From NCBI RefSeq assembly GCF_019285515.1, contig NZ_CP079095.1:2326501-2390500 (forward strand): a stretch of DNA of 64,000 bases, read 5' to 3'. A program made the translations under genes and the position numbers. Positions within the stretch are counted from its first letter, which is position 1. Each line of letters opens with the position of its first letter. Below, piece after piece: positions 4,830-64,000 of the stretch. The notes beneath the pieces are model-generated. The model was not told the origin of the DNA. It did not search any database and saw nothing but the letters and a program-made list of their open reading frames with translations. This DNA is from Methylococcus sp. Mc7. Lineage in GTDB: Bacteria > Pseudomonadota > Gammaproteobacteria > Methylococcales > Methylococcaceae.

Positions 4830-7292
4830 TTGAAAGCAGTCATTCTGGCGGGGGGGCAGGGCAGCCGTCTCAGACCCCTGACCGAAAACATTCCCAAGCC
4901 GATGGTCGCCATCCTGGGTCGTCCTATCATGGAGCACATCGTGCTCCATCTCCGGCGGCACGGATTCACGGAGTTGCTGGCTACCTTGCACTACCGTCCG
5001 CGCCTGATCCGGGACCATTTTGGAGACGGCAGCGAATTCGACGTCAATCTGACCTACACCATCGAGCGCAAACCACTGGGCACCGCGGGATCGGTCAAGC
5101 TTGGCGGAGGTCGGCTCGACGAGACCTTTCTCGTCATTGCCGGGGACGCGTTGACGGATTTCGATCTGGCCGCGTTTTGGCGGTTCCACCGTGAGCGAGG
5201 ATCGAAGGTCACTCTGTATCTCAAGCGGGTTCCCGACCCCAGCGAGTTCGGCATGGTGATCACCGGCGAGGATTCACGGGTACTGCGGTTCCTGGAAAAA
5301 CCCGGCCTGAGCGAGGTGTTCAGCGATACCGTCAACACCGGGATCTACCTCATCGAACCCGACGTTCTGAACGAAATTCCCGACGGTGTTCCCTACGATT
5401 TCGCCAGCGACCTGTTTCCCAAGCTCATCGAACGCGGCGTAGTCCTCCAGGCTTACGTCGGCGACGGCTACTGGTGCGATATCGGGACCCTGGATCAACT
5501 GAGGCAGGCCCACTGGGATTTGCTGGACGGCAAAGTCCATTTGCCGTTGGGCGGAAACCGGGTTCAGGACCAGGTTTGGGTGGGCGAAGGTGGACGCATC
5601 GCGAAGGACGCGACGCTGCTGGCGCCGTGCTGGATCGGCGACAACGTCCACATCCGCACCGGCGCGAAAATCGGCGCCTACACGGTAATCGCGGCAGACG
5701 CGGATATCGACGTTCACGCCAGCCTCAGCCGCACCATCGTCATGAACGGGGCCTTCGTGGGCGAGTCGGCGGATTTGCGTAACTGCATCGTCGGGGACGG
5801 CACCATCCTCGAAGCCGGTTGCGAAGTCGGCGACGGCGCGGTCGTCGGGCAGAATTGCCACCTGGGCCGGAACGTTGTCGTCGCCTCCGGCGTGCTGGTA
5901 TGGCCGGAGAAGTCGGTCGACAGCAATACCACCATCCGTGAAAATCTGATCTGGGAATCGCTGCGGCGGCCTTCGATCTTCGGCTCCCGCGGCATCAGTG
6001 GCCTCGCCAATCTTCACATCACGCCCGAATATGCCACGGTTCTCGGCAAAGCGTTCGGCCACTGGGTCCAGCGGGGAAACCGGGTGGTCGTCGCTCGCGA
6101 CGGGCATCCGTTTTCCCGGTTGCTCAAGCGTGCCCTGATCTGCGGCCTTCTGGCGGTGGGCGTGGACGTCGACGATCTGGAAGAAATCAGCCTGCCGGAA
6201 ACGCGGTTCATCACCTGTTTCGGACGGCGTGTCGGGGGCGGCGTCCATATCCGCATCTCGGACGAACATCCGCGCGTTGCCGTCATCGAGCTTTTCGACG
6301 CCGAGGGTCTGCCGCTTACCCGCGGCGTGCGGCGGAAAATCGAAACCGTCTTCTACCGGGCGGAATTCCCCCGCCTGTCGATCGAAAGCGTAGGCAGCCT
6401 GGCCTATCCCGGGCGGGTCGATGACCGCTACCTGGACCACCTGAGTGCCCACATCGACCGGGAGGCGCTGAAACCTTGGATGGGCCGGGTGCTGCACTGT
6501 TGCGGCGAGGACAATCTTTCCCGAATACTCGCGTCAATCCTCAAGAGCCAGGGGCTGCCGCAATTCCAGGCGGAATACGGGGAATCGGGTCTTCCCGTCG
6601 TGCCGTACGGGCGCCTTGCCGAAATCGCCAAACTCAACCATCAGATCGTGCTGGTCATCGAAGGGTCGGGCGAAAAGTTGAGCCTGGTGGACGAGGTCGG
6701 AAACGTCCTCGATGCCCGTCGGACTCTGGAACTGCTCGCCGCGGCCTTTACGCTGGGGGCGCCGCCTTCCGAGCCGCTTTTCCTGCTGCCCGATCATCCC
6801 GTGTTCCTGAAAGAAATGGCCGAATCGAACGGCCGGCGGGTCATCGTGACGCCCAAGGAAGTGGCCGCGCAAATACAGGCCGTCGTCCAGGGGGCGAAGA
6901 CGCGCGAGGTGTGGATACATTTCGTGCATTTCTACCTGGGCTACGGGGCCGTCGCCGCGGCGTTGCGGTTGCTCGAATTTCTCGGTCGCCGCCAAATGGC
7001 GCTGCACGACTTCGAGCGCGCGGTTTCTCTCAGTCACCGGGGCAGCCTGGTCGTCCCTTGCCCCTGGGACCACATGGGGCGCGTCATGCGGGAATTGGCA
7101 CAGATGCCGGAAGCCCGTTCCGACAGCGTACCGGAAGGAGTCCGGCTGGAGATCGGCGACGACTCGATCTACGTGCTCCCCAGTGCCGACGCGCCGCAGT
7201 TGGAGATCACACTGGAGGCGGCAACCGCGTCCGGACTCGCCAAGCTGGAACAAGAGGAAGTGAACCACCGCATCCGCAGGTTGATCGAGTGA
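4830..7292 (+). CDS. NDP-sugar pyrophosphorylase fused to a degenerate phosphomannomutase-like domain
   Basis: 820 aa. Residues 1-230 are a nucleotidyltransferase with the signature LAGGQGSRLRPLT (6-18), IPKPM and GDALTDF, which transfers NMP to sugar-1-phosphate. Residues about 245-370 form a left-handed beta-helix of hexapeptide repeats (GDNVHIRTGAKIGAYTVI and similar). Residues from about 385 to the end resemble the four-domain phosphomannomutase/phosphoglucomutase fold, but the phosphoserine loop TASHNP is absent; HIRISDEHPR stands in a comparable place. The start is TTG with a strong AAGGAGGAGC before it. The gene overlaps the next by GTGA, so it is the first gene of the sucrose operon. 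It may supply NDP-glucose, but substrate and nucleotide cannot be read from sequence; GDP-mannose is the family alternative. Confidence 0.85.
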   Translation: MKAVILAGGQGSRLRPLTENIPKPMVAILGRPIMEHIVLHLRRHGFTELLATLHYRPRLIRDHFGDGSEFDVNLTYTIERKPLGTAGSVKLGGGRLDETFLVIAGDALTDFDLAAFWRFHRERGSKVTLYLKRVPDPSEFGMVITGEDSRVLRFLEKPGLSEVFSDTVNTGIYLIEPDVLNEIPDGVPYDFASDLFPKLIERGVVLQAYVGDGYWCDIGTLDQLRQAHWDLLDGKVHLPLGGNRVQDQVWVGEGGRIAKDATLLAPCWIGDNVHIRTGAKIGAYTVIAADADIDVHASLSRTIVMNGAFVGESADLRNCIVGDGTILEAGCEVGDGAVVGQNCHLGRNVVVASGVLVWPEKSVDSNTTIRENLIWESLRRPSIFGSRGISGLANLHITPEYATVLGKAFGHWVQRGNRVVVARDGHPFSRLLKRALICGLLAVGVDVDDLEEISLPETRFITCFGRRVGGGVHIRISDEHPRVAVIELFDAEGLPLTRGVRRKIETVFYRAEFPRLSIESVGSLAYPGRVDDRYLDHLSAHIDREALKPWMGRVLHCCGEDNLSRILASILKSQGLPQFQAEYGESGLPVVPYGRLAEIAKLNHQIVLVIEGSGEKLSLVDEVGNVLDARRTLELLAAAFTLGAPPSEPLFLLPDHPVFLKEMAESNGRRVIVTPKEVAAQIQAVVQGAKTREVWIHFVHFYLGYGAVAAALRLLEFLGRRQMALHDFERAVSLSHRGSLVVPCPWDHMGRVMRELAQMPEARSDSVPEGVRLEIGDDSIYVLPSADAPQLEITLEAATASGLAKLEQEEVNHRIRRLIE

Positions 7293-60322: not shown

Positions 60323-60769
60323 GAGCGGGGGTATGTGAGTGGCCTGCTATCTTTGGGGGCGCCGTGGTTCAGCGTAAACGGCTGATGACGCGGGAACATG
60401 CTTCGGGGAACGGGATTTGTTGTGCGCCCCTCCTCCTGATGTGGCCTGACCGAGTGTGTTGCCATCGTGAACGGGTCTTCCGTAACCGTTCGGTTCCCTG
60501 GGAGCGCGGGCGTCCCGCCCGCTGAAAAAGCGGCCAAGACGGCCGCGATCCCAGCAACAAAGAAGCGGGAGGCATGAACGGTTGCGGTTTTCCAAGCCGG
60601 ACTCGATCGCTCAGCTTCTTCACAAAATCTTCATATATGCGGTGGTACATCGCATTGCTATAATTTAACTATATAAAATATAAATAGATTGACATTATTG
60701 TTATAGGGGCTGAGTCTTAACCCCCGGGGGGACGCGTAGCTCATGATGAGCAAAAAAATTCGGCTTGGT
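60323..60769. other. Non-coding stretch between cox operon and lasso cluster
   Basis: About 450 bases. The left part is GC-rich and holds repeat copy B (60482-60585). From about 60640 the sequence turns AT-rich (runs such as AACTATATAAAATATAAATA). Only short, repeat-derived readings exist here (60369-60650 minus), and a 14-codon ORF starting ATGATGAGC near 60742 overlaps the promoter candidate. I see no gene. Confidence 0.7.
60482..60585 (+). repeat. Short dispersed repeat with terminal inverted repeats, copy B
   Basis: 104-bp element from GTAACCGTTC to GAACGGTTGC, inverted relative to copy A at 23965-24063. The two share nearly identical sequence over the half with GGCGGGACGCCCGCG and more diverged sequence elsewhere. 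It lies about 280 bp before the lasso cluster. Confidence 0.7.
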
Positions 60770-60798: not shown

Positions 60799-60864
60799 TA
60801 GAAGTTAGACATCCTTAGGTTGTCGCGTTCGAGGGGATTTGGTACGTCAGGTGGGAGCTTCAAG

Positions 60865-61299
60865 ATGCGCGGTGCAAGGGGCGTGCGGCGATTCCTATCT
60901 CTATCAGCGATAGATCGCAGGCTTTTTTTTCAGGCGCTGTTTCTTATATTGTTGTTCCGCGTAGCGCTGGTTGTGGTTCCTTTTCAGCGGTTGTGGAAAT
61001 ACCTGGGCGGGATGAAATCAGTTGGAACTCGTGATATGCAGCAGCGCATTGTGATTCAGCCCGAAAAAACAGGAACAGCGCTCGCTCGGGCTAGTCGATA
61101 TGTTCCAGGGACTACCTGCCTGATGCAGGCTTTAGCGGGGATTTTGATGTTGAGCCGGCAAGGATATATTGCCGAACTCTGCATTGGAGTGGCAAAACCA
61201 AATGGCGAATTTGGTGCTCATGCTTGGGTAGAGTGCGGCGGTCGCCCAGTAGTCGGTACTAAAGCGGATTTCACTACGTTACATGTATTGAAACGATAA
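60865..61299 (+). CDS. Lasso peptide biosynthesis B2 protein (leader peptidase)
   Basis: 144 aa from an ATG at 60865 (GTGGGAG upstream); a TTG at 60820 would add 15 residues. The transglutaminase-like cysteine protease fold of B2 proteins is seen: Cys85 in GTTCLMQALAGILML, His119 in GEFGAHAWVECGGRPV and Asp135 in GTKADF. B2 removes the leader from a lasso precursor. It lacks a PqqD-like recognition domain, which must be a separate B1 protein; none is visible in the window. First gene of the cluster, 10 bases before the cyclase. Confidence 0.92.
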   Translation: MRGARGVRRFLSLSAIDRRLFFQALFLILLFRVALVVVPFQRLWKYLGGMKSVGTRDMQQRIVIQPEKTGTALARASRYVPGTTCLMQALAGILMLSRQGYIAELCIGVAKPNGEFGAHAWVECGGRPVVGTKADFTTLHVLKR

Positions 61300-61309
61300 G
61301 GATGGTCTG

Positions 61310-63172
61310 ATGAGCGGAATTATAGGGATTTGTTATCAGGATGGTCGCTCGGTCGACCGCACTGAGCTGGAGCGCATAACCGATTCCATCGCTCACCGTG
61401 GCCCGGATGGCTCCGGCATCTGGCTGGATGGCTCCGTCGGTCTCGGGCATCGGATGCTCTGGACTACTCCCGAGTCGCTGAAGGAACAACTGCCTCTCGT
61501 CAGTTCGAGTGGCAATTTCGTGATAACCGCGGATGCTAGAATCGACAACCGCGACGATCTCGCCCGCCAGCTCGATCTTCCCCTATCTGTAGATATCCCT
61601 GACAGTGCGTTGATCCTGGCAGCCTACGAGGCTTGGGGCGAAAACTGTCCGACGAAACTCGTCGGAGATTTCTCGTTCGCTATCTGGGACAAGAGAAAAC
61701 GCACAATCTTCGCAGCCCGAGACCGACTTGGCATTAAGCCGTTCTATTACCATCATCGGGAAGGGCGAGTATTCGTCTTCGCGTCCGAGATTTTCCCGCT
61801 GTTTAAGGCTGCCGGTCTGGAAAAGCTGCCCAACCGGGACGCCATACGAGAAGTCGTTACGAAATTCGCGACAGCTTTCGATAGAACCCTGTTCGAGGGG
61901 ATCAAACGCTTACCTCCGGCCTGCAACCTAGTACTTTGCAATGGACGCTTGGTTGTGCGCCGGTACTGGGAGCCTGTGCCCGCCCAAGGCAGTCGAAAGC
62001 CCGACCTGGCTAGGCACGTCGAGGAGTTCCGCCATCTTTTCGGTGAAGCCGTCAGGGCGCAATCGCGTAGTGCCTTTCCGATTGGTTGCCTACTCGGTGG
62101 AGGGCTGGATTCTTCCTCGGTCCTTTGTATGGCTGCCCGCCTCATCCCGGATAAGGCACGGCTGACCAGCTATTCTATGATCTTCGACCGGTTCCCCTGC
62201 GATGAGCGTAAATTCATCGAACAGACGGCCCGGGAAGCTGGCGTGGAGCGGATCTTCACGGTGGCGGATGCGAATCCTGTCGAGGGTTGGGGTGGCCTTA
62301 AAGCCTGCTACGGCTTACACCGGGACTGGCCGATCCAGGGTATGCCCATGAGAGCCCTCTGGCCCTTGCTGGACGAGGCCAAGAGCCGCGGGGTGAGGGT
62401 GATGCTGACTGGTGTCGGCGGCGACTCCGTGATCCAGGGGAGTCCCTATTATCTGGCCGACCTGCTGACATCGGGTCGTTGGAGCGCCTTGGCCGGTGAA
62501 TTGATACAGTATCGTTTTTCGCCAAATATACTCTGGTACTGGATGATGGAGCCCGTATTGCCAGAATGGCTTTGCAGGCTCGGCAGGCGGATAAAGGAAT
62601 TTATACGGCCTCATAGCGATGCGTCGTTGTTGTTGGGAAATGAGGCGCTAGGAGTTGGGCAGGAACACCCCTATCTAGTGCGCGCCCGTTTTGAGAGCGC
62701 CAGCGCTTGGCAAGAGGCGAGTTTCATCGCTAATCCGGGAAGCAGTATGGCTCTAGACGGTGAGTGGGATGGGTTAGGCCATCGCGGCACGTTGGAGTTT
62801 CGCCATCCTTTCTATGATGCCAGACTGATGGACTTTCTTATGTCGGTTCCATCCGAGGAAAAAAGACGGCAAGGAACTACCAAATATATTCTCCGCGAAG
62901 CGATGAAAACCGTATTACCAGAAAGTATACGACTGCGCAAAGGTAAGGCGGAGTTCTCACCTGTCTTCGCATCGATACTCGATTCTATAAAATTCGATCC
63001 GGGCTCTTTCACGCTCACCCGGGTTGGGATTGTGGAAGCAAACAGGGTGGCAAGCGTTATCGAACATCGAACAGTCCAGCCCACTCCCATGAGTTCGCTT
63101 GTTTTGTGGCAACTGGCTGCCCTGGAAATTTGGTATAGCACTTACTTCAAACCAATAGGAGATCAAACATGA
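61310..63172 (+). CDS. Lasso-type cyclase (asparagine synthetase homologue)
   Basis: 620 aa. The N-terminal Ntn glutaminase-like domain starts MSGIIGICYQDG: position 2 is Ser instead of the catalytic Cys, so glutamine hydrolysis is not expected. HRGPDGSGIWLDG and RDRLGIKPFYYH remain. The synthetase domain has the ATP loop LLGGGLDSSSVLCMAARL (about 261-278) and TGVGGDSVIQGS; it ends with RHPFYDARLMDFLMSVP and LRKGKAEFSP. Lasso cyclases use this domain to activate an Asp/Glu side chain for ring closure. The stop overlaps the precursor start by ATGA. Confidence 0.93.
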   Translation: MSGIIGICYQDGRSVDRTELERITDSIAHRGPDGSGIWLDGSVGLGHRMLWTTPESLKEQLPLVSSSGNFVITADARIDNRDDLARQLDLPLSVDIPDSALILAAYEAWGENCPTKLVGDFSFAIWDKRKRTIFAARDRLGIKPFYYHHREGRVFVFASEIFPLFKAAGLEKLPNRDAIREVVTKFATAFDRTLFEGIKRLPPACNLVLCNGRLVVRRYWEPVPAQGSRKPDLARHVEEFRHLFGEAVRAQSRSAFPIGCLLGGGLDSSSVLCMAARLIPDKARLTSYSMIFDRFPCDERKFIEQTAREAGVERIFTVADANPVEGWGGLKACYGLHRDWPIQGMPMRALWPLLDEAKSRGVRVMLTGVGGDSVIQGSPYYLADLLTSGRWSALAGELIQYRFSPNILWYWMMEPVLPEWLCRLGRRIKEFIRPHSDASLLLGNEALGVGQEHPYLVRARFESASAWQEASFIANPGSSMALDGEWDGLGHRGTLEFRHPFYDARLMDFLMSVPSEEKRRQGTTKYILREAMKTVLPESIRLRKGKAEFSPVFASILDSIKFDPGSFTLTRVGIVEANRVASVIEHRTVQPTPMSSLVLWQLAALEIWYSTYFKPIGDQT

Positions 63173-63342
63173 ACGTATCTGAACAGCAAGATATTCGGCT
63201 TATCAACGAAGAGCCAAAAAAACTTTACACGGCACCAGTACTGAGCGAATACGGAAATATGACTACCTTGACACAAGGTAGCTTAGTTTTGTCCGTTGTA
63301 ACACCGCTGACTGCCACTTTAGCCGATGTGGCGGGGGGGTAG
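63169..63342 (+). CDS. Lasso-family precursor peptide with an atypical core
   Basis: 57 aa. The leader has the lasso recognition pattern YxxPxLxxYGxxxxLT: Lys17-Lys18-Leu19-Tyr20, Pro23, Leu25, Tyr28, Gly29, Leu34, with Thr35 at the normal -2 site. Cleavage after Gln36 gives a 21-residue core from Gly37 to Gly57, GSLVLSVVTP followed by LTATLADVAGG. Core positions 7-9 are Val, Val, Thr, so the acidic residue needed for the usual Gly1 to Asp/Glu isopeptide ring is missing; the only acid is Asp53 (core 17). It is coupled to the cyclase by ATGA and followed 10 bases later by the kinase-like gene. Confidence 0.85.
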   Translation: MNVSEQQDIRLINEEPKKLYTAPVLSEYGNMTTLTQGSLVLSVVTPLTATLADVAGG

Positions 63343-63352
63343 TCTATCGTCC

Positions 63353-64000
63353 ATGCGCTTCTCTGCCTATGGGACTTTCATTGAGTCAGAAATTCCGTTG
63401 ACCGGTTTGCCGCCTCCTTCTGGCAAGCCGGTCAGCGCAGTAAAGTTTAAATCGGGATGCCCTCACCATACGTTGGCGGATCAGAAACGCATAATAGAAT
63501 CGCCTAAAGGATGGGTAAATATTGTGTGTGCGGGGGGGGGAAGTCCTGTATTTCGCATTGACGAAGTGGGAGAGTTTCATCTCTGTCCTGAGGAATCAGC
63601 GATTTGCTGTCGCCTCATGCCGGGAACTTCCATGGAGAGAGTGCGCTATTGGCTGATGCATTACGTGCTTCCTGTCTATCTCTTGCTGGATCCCCGATTC
63701 GATTTTCTTCATGGTTCGGCAGTGGATATTGATGGCGGAGGCGTGGCGTTTCTGGCCGATGCCATGGGTGGAAAATCTACGCTTGCTAATTTCTTCGTCC
63801 AGCAAGGGCACGGCCTATTGACCGACGATCATCTGGGTATTTTTCGAAGGGACGTATTCCTGGCAATTCCCAGCGTCCCTTTTGTCCGTCCGTACCGGGA
63901 GTTCGAGGATCTTGGGAACCCGGTCGAGCGATTCGCTTCCCAGCCTTTGCCGCTACGGGCTATCTATCTGCTTGAGCTGTCCGATGGACCAGCGCGGGTA
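63353..64000 (+). CDS. HPr-kinase-like protein of the RiPP cluster, cut by window end
   Basis: 216 codons to the window edge, no stop. FDFLHGSAVDIDGGGVAFLA leads into a P-loop DAMGGKSTLANFF (about 136-148), then GHGLLTDDHLGIF, the pattern of HPr-kinase/phosphorylase-like proteins found in lasso clusters such as that of paeninodin, where the kinase phosphorylates the C-terminal Ser of the precursor. The N-terminal 100 residues are the variable part of these proteins. The P-loop reads AMGGKST in place of the more common SGAGKST. The core of the adjacent precursor does not end in Ser, so its substrate is unclear. Confidence 0.82.
   Translation, partial: MRFSAYGTFIESEIPLTGLPPPSGKPVSAVKFKSGCPHHTLADQKRIIESPKGWVNIVCAGGGSPVFRIDEVGEFHLCPEESAICCRLMPGTSMERVRYWLMHYVLPVYLLLDPRFDFLHGSAVDIDGGGVAFLADAMGGKSTLANFFVQQGHGLLTDDHLGIFRRDVFLAIPSVPFVRPYREFEDLGNPVERFASQPLPLRAIYLLELSDGPARV

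Follow-up and report, generated by a model that had tools for sequence, protein, structure and literature searches.

Biosynthetic clusters for phosphorylated lasso peptides of the Paeninodin/Bsf type combine a YxxPxL leader, a discrete RRE, a B2 peptidase, an AsnB-like C protein, an HprK-like kinase, an NTP_transf_5 protein and an ABC exporter. Work on the kinase BsfK shows that phosphorylation need not occur at a C-terminal Ser (PMC10368454). Lasso-type machinery is also used for the linear polyphosphorylated peptides (LPPs) of Bacillota, whose product is proposed to be linear (PMC13381572); these pathways comprise a lasso-like leader motif, an RRE, an HprK-like kinase, an NTP transferase and an MsbA-like exporter and are described without a macrolactam cyclase and with an archaeal-type signal peptidase. 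Epipeptides (YydF/EpeX with YydG/EpeE) depend on a radical SAM enzyme and have Val/Leu-rich cores. Finally, the MS-271 cluster is described as giving a lasso peptide with a D-Trp made by the peptide epimerase MslH (PMC9266682), an enzyme presented as metal-dependent in PMC10406935.

The cluster studied here begins near the end of the window, i.e. the whole 64,000-nucleotide stretch of the Methylococcus sp. Mc7 genome that was analysed (contig NZ_CP079095.1, positions 2,326,501 to 2,390,500), and runs on beyond it in this 4.0 Mb, single-contig genome. The genes follow in the order B2, C, A, HprK-like kinase, radical SAM/SPASM, PqqD-type RRE, NTP_transf_5, ABC exporter and a second NTP_transf_5, with the radical SAM gene and everything after it lying past the window's end (Table 1). 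All components listed above for the Paeninodin/Bsf-type clusters are shared by Mc7, which differs from them in having no ring acid at core positions 7-9, a first PP-loop Ser replaced by Gly, a radical SAM gene and no C-terminal Ser. The leader motif, RRE, kinase, NTP transferase and MsbA-like exporter are likewise common to Mc7 and the LPPs; however, Mc7 carries a gene for an altered C (61310-63172), and B2 is the expected protease. The radical SAM enzyme is related to EpeE over most of its length and the core is Val/Leu-rich, with Ile in the homologue from M. capsulatus Texas, as in epipeptides, but the leader is of lasso type and RRE and B2 are present. MS-271, in contrast, is a true lasso whose epimerase is not a radical SAM enzyme. 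From a reading of the translations, the cluster lies between cox genes and putative sulfate adenylyltransferase subunit genes. An 81-nt direct repeat, 90% identical, occurs on both cluster flanks (window 60481-60561 and L002:11385-11465).

Table 1. Features of the Mc7 cluster. Plain positions refer to the window, those with the prefix L002 to the stretch in which the cluster continues.
Feature	Position	Strand	Evidence and remarks
B2, transglutaminase-like leader peptidase	60820..61299	+	NF033537 2e-28, PF13471 9.5e-26; true start maybe at a downstream codon
C, lasso-type AsnB-like cyclase, 620 aa, altered PP-loop GGGLDSS	61310..63172	+	NF033535 486.4 bits, below cutoff 525
Precursor ORF (A), 57 aa, MNVSEQQDIRLINEEPKKLYTAPVLSEYGNMTTLTQGSLVLSVVTPLTATLADVAGG	63169-63342	+	translation
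Leader part of precursor, residues 1-36	63169..63276	+	YxxPxL at -17 to -12, Thr at -2
Core with stop codon, GSLVLSVVTPLTATLADVAGG; Asp17 the sole acid, none at 7-9	63277..63342	+	sequence; Texas homologue
HprK-like peptide kinase	63353..64000, on to L002:5726	+	PF07475 2.6e-05, 24.3 bits, below gathering score 33.3
Radical SAM enzyme	L002:5644 or 5719-6747		beyond window; best NCBIfam model TIGR04078
PqqD/RRE	L002:6753-7028		beyond window; PF05402 1.3e-16
NTP_transf_5, first	L002:7093-7968		beyond window
ABC exporter, MsbA-like	L002:7972-9849		beyond window
NTP_transf_5, second	L002:9942-11216		beyond window

Both proteins that process a lasso leader, the RRE (B1) and the B2 peptidase, are encoded, and Cys100 and His134 of B2 are identical in 48/48 other aligned B2s. 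Judged by their sequences, B2, RRE, kinase and exporter look intact. The kinase keeps H129, K150, D167 and D168. Two glycines of the usual GxxGxGKS P-loop differ in the Mc7 enzyme and similarly in that of G031, a genome of the same family; the first glycine is absent in several other kinases. In kinases of this cluster type (L096:2017-2904; window 63353-64000), the two glycines are replaced by Ala and Met/Phe. For BsfK, nearly wild-type activity of the G166A and G168A variants and poor solubility of G163A are reported (PMC10368454). Action of the kinase at a C-terminal Ser was ruled out, as the Mc7, Texas and G031 cores have none. An alternative kinase start at 63326 overlaps the 3' end of the precursor gene, and a G7 run at the precursor end (63333-63339) overlaps an upstream start in the kinase frame. 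A G9 run is found within the Mc7 kinase gene (63532-63540), one of 13 G tracts of at least nine on either strand of the 4.0 Mb genome. The Texas C frame breaks in a G11 run inside the PP-loop (L013:8786), and the Texas kinase frame breaks at a G8 run (L013:10472). The G runs are suggestive only: phase variation is possible, as are draft errors in Texas.

The 57-residue ORF following C is a real precursor. Its start codon and the stop of C share the sequence ATGA, bearing out the coupling to a cyclase gene noted in a preliminary description of the sequence. Cleavage after Gln36 places Tyr20, Pro23 and Leu25 at -17, -14 and -12 and Thr35 at -2, which matches the lasso leader spacing of YxxPxL at -17 to -12 given in PMC10368454; the fit of these four residues and of Gly29 to the lasso leader, as claimed previously, was confirmed by translation and spacing. 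The leader is matched by two NCBIfam models, NF033528 (4.1e-05, 23.5 bits, under its cutoff of 33) and, weakly, NF033521 (0.011, 15.8 bits, under its cutoff of 19). The Texas homologue, found with 69% identity and an E-value of 3.7e-19, itself weakly matches one of the two (0.0076). These leader matches, together with the conservation in M. capsulatus Texas, argue that the ORF is more than a chance reading frame. The core has Val, Val and Thr at positions 7-9 and Asp17 as its sole acid, again as the preliminary description stated. The Texas core, GALALSVITPLTATLVDI, is identical to that of Mc7 at 13 of 18 aligned residues, and in both the first acid is at 17. Texas shares the gene order of Mc7 over the part of its contig that was examined.

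A search for B2 covered 369 genomes of the class, 301 of the order and 398 of the phylum, Mc7 being counted in each. Matches were obtained in 14, 17 and 48 genomes, respectively, those above the family cutoff numbering 14, 16 and 45. Outside the Mc7 genome these define 92 distinct places, of which 90 were taken (the two omitted fall below the family cutoff); with L002, L013 and L096 added and the duplicate L015 removed, 92 loci were examined. A cyclase homologue is present in 41/92 loci, although some of those counted may be other AsnB-like enzymes. Eight of the 41 (L014, L019, L036, L040, L061, L067, L087 and L090) have no recognisable precursor and stand outside the counts, while precursor candidates, chosen by eye, were obtained from 31 loci besides the two Methylococcus loci. 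Besides those of Methylococcus, 15 cyclase-associated precursors have a YxxPx[LI]xxxG leader (12 distinct cores), and every one of them has Asp or Glu at position 8 or 9 at a fixed spacing, with Thr at -2 in 14 and Val in one; this group was defined after the sequences had been seen. In the remaining 16 loci, mostly with WxxP leaders, an acid falls at 7-9 in 15 when three spacings are allowed, the exception being L068, with the acid at 10-12 in its three precursors. The first acid of both Methylococcus precursors is at 17 at the fixed spacing and at 17-19 if three spacings are allowed. The missing ring acid is shared with Texas and sets both precursors apart from 15/15 others with the same type of leader.

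Some loci of the survey have unusual make-ups of their own. The three L068 precursors are in tandem (L068:13279-13959), with Lys/Arg-rich cores and a C-terminal Gly-Ser, beside a cyclase with SGGIDSS; the product perhaps has a larger ring. Two genomes from another family of the order encode lasso-type leaders on Gly/Pro-rich cores (GRTSIPAG...; L020:17112-17285 and L023:15948-16142), near RRE, kinase, B2 and ABC genes; these cores have no acid at 7-9, and no cyclase homologue was present in the stretch examined. In genomes G040 and G054, leaders of the lasso type are accompanied by genes for RRE, B2, kinase and ABC, with no cyclase homologue in the stretch examined.

In the AsnB/PP-ATPase family, the SGGxDS loop binds ATP/pyrophosphate. 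The first position of this loop in Mc7 C is Gly263 (codon at 62096). Among 39 other homologues the corresponding residue is Ser in 38 and Thr in one, whereas it is Gly in Mc7 and Texas. A comparison of the 14 columns that are at least 90% conserved in these homologues reveals that Mc7 C deviates at a single one, the first PP-loop Ser, and Texas C at two, both in the PP-loop: the first Ser, and the second Ser (39/39 elsewhere), which is replaced by Ala. Deviation as such is not rare, with at least one of the 14 columns affected in 11/39 other homologues, but all 39 have Ser or Thr at both PP-loop Ser positions. At the 80% level (31 columns), Mc7 deviates at four (122, 263, 494 and 508), Texas at three and G031 at two. 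The loop reads GGGLDSS in Mc7, GGGLDAA in Texas and SGGLDSS in G031; the intact SGGxDS-type loop of an ATP-dependent lasso cyclase is therefore missing from both Methylococcus proteins. A 2026 review states that crystal structures of lasso cyclases are lacking (PMC13352647). One lost Ser does not prove that C is inactive.

The G031 core, GTGLVLLDILIQGSLTVSVTTLG, has Asp8. Its contig carries C, A, kinase, radical SAM, RRE, a weak nucleotidyltransferase-like gene (1.2e-05) and ABC, while B2 lies on a different contig together with the beginning of a C gene. G031 thus keeps both the ring acid and the SGGLDSS loop. As read from these alignments, the change in the cyclase parallels the loss of the ring acid in Methylococcus, which is a new observation. 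With ring acid and ATP-loop Ser both gone in one lineage and the Ser kept by the acid-bearing relative, a product other than a lasso is the most straightforward explanation. We therefore favour, with a probability of roughly 0.5, the view that Methylococcus has a RiPP pathway derived from lasso biosynthesis but no longer yielding a canonical lasso, with a product that is probably linear and possibly epimerised or phosphorylated. The LPPs, for which linearity is proposed, set a precedent for such use of lasso-type machinery. Mc7 and Texas have a common ancestry, so that acid and Ser may have been lost together only once, and G031 with its Asp8 is a single example. Of the interpretations offered in the preliminary description, those of the leader, the absent ring acid and the cyclase link stand. 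Its option of a linear or differently modified RiPP is strengthened by the lost first PP-loop Ser and by the YydG/EpeE-like radical SAM gene beyond the window. Threading through a ring closed at Asp17 fared worse: only one residue follows Asp17 in Texas and four in Mc7, so such a lasso is very unlikely and was ruled out as a candidate.

An unthreaded macrocycle, closed by a C that is active despite its PP-loop change, is an unlikely but credible alternative. Asp17 and the block TPLTATLxD are common to Mc7 and Texas, and C is under purifying selection; the ring could span 17 residues via Asp17, run head to tail or comprise the 7 residues LTATLxD. The last would need cleavage after Thr45-Pro46, which puts Thr45 at -2, but such an alternative site breaks the leader spacing; the same conflict weighs on the earlier suggestion that the cleavage site is elsewhere, possible as this is. 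Head-to-tail closure is disfavoured by the different C-terminal lengths of the Mc7 and Texas cores. Against all three forms, the first PP-loop Ser is gone in both Methylococcus cyclases, and the second in Texas.

Selection was assessed by Nei-Gojobori comparison of Mc7 with Texas, in which dS reaches roughly 1 or higher in five cases, so that those ratios are approximate. The dN/dS values were 0.29 for B2, 0.15 and 0.21 for the 5' and 3' parts of C, 0.21 for A, 0.15 and 0.20 for the kinase, 0.09 for the radical SAM gene, 0.16 for the RRE, 0.32 for the first NTP_transf_5 and 0.15 for ABC, compared with 0.15 and 0.03 for cox controls. All are below 1, that of C included, which speaks as much against simple decay as against a C with no function. 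Purifying selection implies that C does something, and this counts against our favoured reading of a non-lasso product; if Gly263 is older than the species split, C has been kept without that Ser. The values also bear on the rather improbable view that the cluster is decaying, ring acid and cyclase loop having been lost as the pathway is no longer selected. Consistent with decay, Texas has broken frames in its C and kinase genes, both at G runs, and the radical SAM gene occurs in only 3/38 family genomes, which suggests that the cluster is rarely kept. However, homopolymer breaks in a draft genome may be sequencing errors, the Mc7 window genes are open, the core is conserved and dN/dS remains at 0.09-0.32 over the cluster genes compared and at 0.21 for the precursor, albeit with some dS values close to saturation.

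The radical SAM enzyme has the YydG epimerase model TIGR04078 as its best NCBIfam match, at 75.9 bits and hence far under the cutoff of 300. Residues 8-299 of 342 align to the EpeE/YydG structures 8ai1-8ai6 (best E-value 4.5e-13, PDB 8ai6), and its SPASM-type Cys residues are conserved. Cys223 was located on the aligned structure chain by presuming the native length of the enzyme, and the residue aligned with it is Cys in Mc7, Texas, G031 and two distant relatives. Cys223 is the proposed H-atom donor (PMC8326336). As a proof of epimerase activity this residue was dropped, since the CC motif also occurs in the Allochromatium and Halocatena relatives, among whose annotated neighbours no lasso gene was found. 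Where 8ai1 has Asp and 8ai6 has Ala, the aligned residue of the Mc7 enzyme is Thr, which counts against an epimerase. Similar enzymes were found in plasmid records at 24-28% identity (best 10 of 11 records), and as those in the two records examined adjoin quite different genes, epimerase activity is only putative. The gene was detected in 3/301 order genomes (E-value up to 1e-20), at 1e-30 in the family genomes, and in 2/369 class genomes (1e-15), the second match being only 26% identical; among the 92 survey loci it is confined to three, Mc7, Texas and G031.

Presence in all three clusters and the conserved SPASM-type Cys residues would also suit a radical SAM enzyme that closes a ring in place of C, for example by a C-C or ether cross-link replacing the macrolactam. 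We regard this as improbable: the nearest relative of known function that was found is an epimerase, the core is devoid of Cys, Trp, Tyr and Phe, the usual cross-link partners, and G031 pairs the enzyme with a normal Asp8. Searches for a second precursor used the Mc7 precursor itself, NF033521 and an alignment (A1) of 13 of the 17 YxxPx[LI]xxxG precursors, Mc7 and Texas included, in which two rows begin slightly off the true start and the near-copies L086, L101, L102 and L103 are left out. Other matches were weak, at 12.3 bits in the Mc7 genome (NF033521) and 12.6 and 12.0 in genomes G004 and G003 (alignment A1). Lasso clusters can carry several precursors, but a canonical lasso pathway with its true precursor elsewhere in the genome is highly improbable and largely refuted by these searches, which gave no convincing second precursor in the Mc7 genome with any of the three queries, no leader-motif ORF in the 10 kb downstream, and a single B2 match in the Mc7 genome. 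The refutation set out in the preliminary description, a second and canonical precursor just past the window, was not obtained.

Returning to the favoured lasso-derived pathway, the PqqD/RRE protein would bind the lasso-type leader, and B2 would remove it to release a core beginning at Gly37, as motif, spacing and intact B2 residues suggest. With the acid absent from the ring position and the first PP-loop Ser lost, no N-terminal macrolactam would be formed, and C would persist as a core-binding or scaffold protein, or be on its way to being lost. The product would probably be linear and of about 21 residues. The YydG/EpeE-like radical SAM enzyme may introduce D-residues at Val, Leu or Ile, the HprK-like kinase may phosphorylate internal Ser/Thr, the NTP_transf_5 proteins may add further decoration, and the MsbA-like ABC transporter would export the product. 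A fully specified form of this pathway, in which leader, RRE and peptidase serve a linear peptide with D-residues and the cyclase is a retained pseudo-enzyme acting as scaffold or core chaperone, is more tentative and, taken as a whole, doubtful.

If true, this would be a natural case of an enzyme and its substrate giving up a reaction together, with a close relative keeping both features. The cluster also combines lasso genes with one for a radical SAM enzyme resembling epimerases. Neither a Methylococcus lasso cluster nor a lasso cluster with a YydG-type enzyme appeared in the titles or abstracts of the best literature matches among open-licence papers. For genome mining, the lesson is that a cyclase gene by itself is not a sufficient sign of a lasso. 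Comparison of the Methylococcus C with that of G031 offers a way to probe the role of the PP-loop Ser in lasso cyclases.
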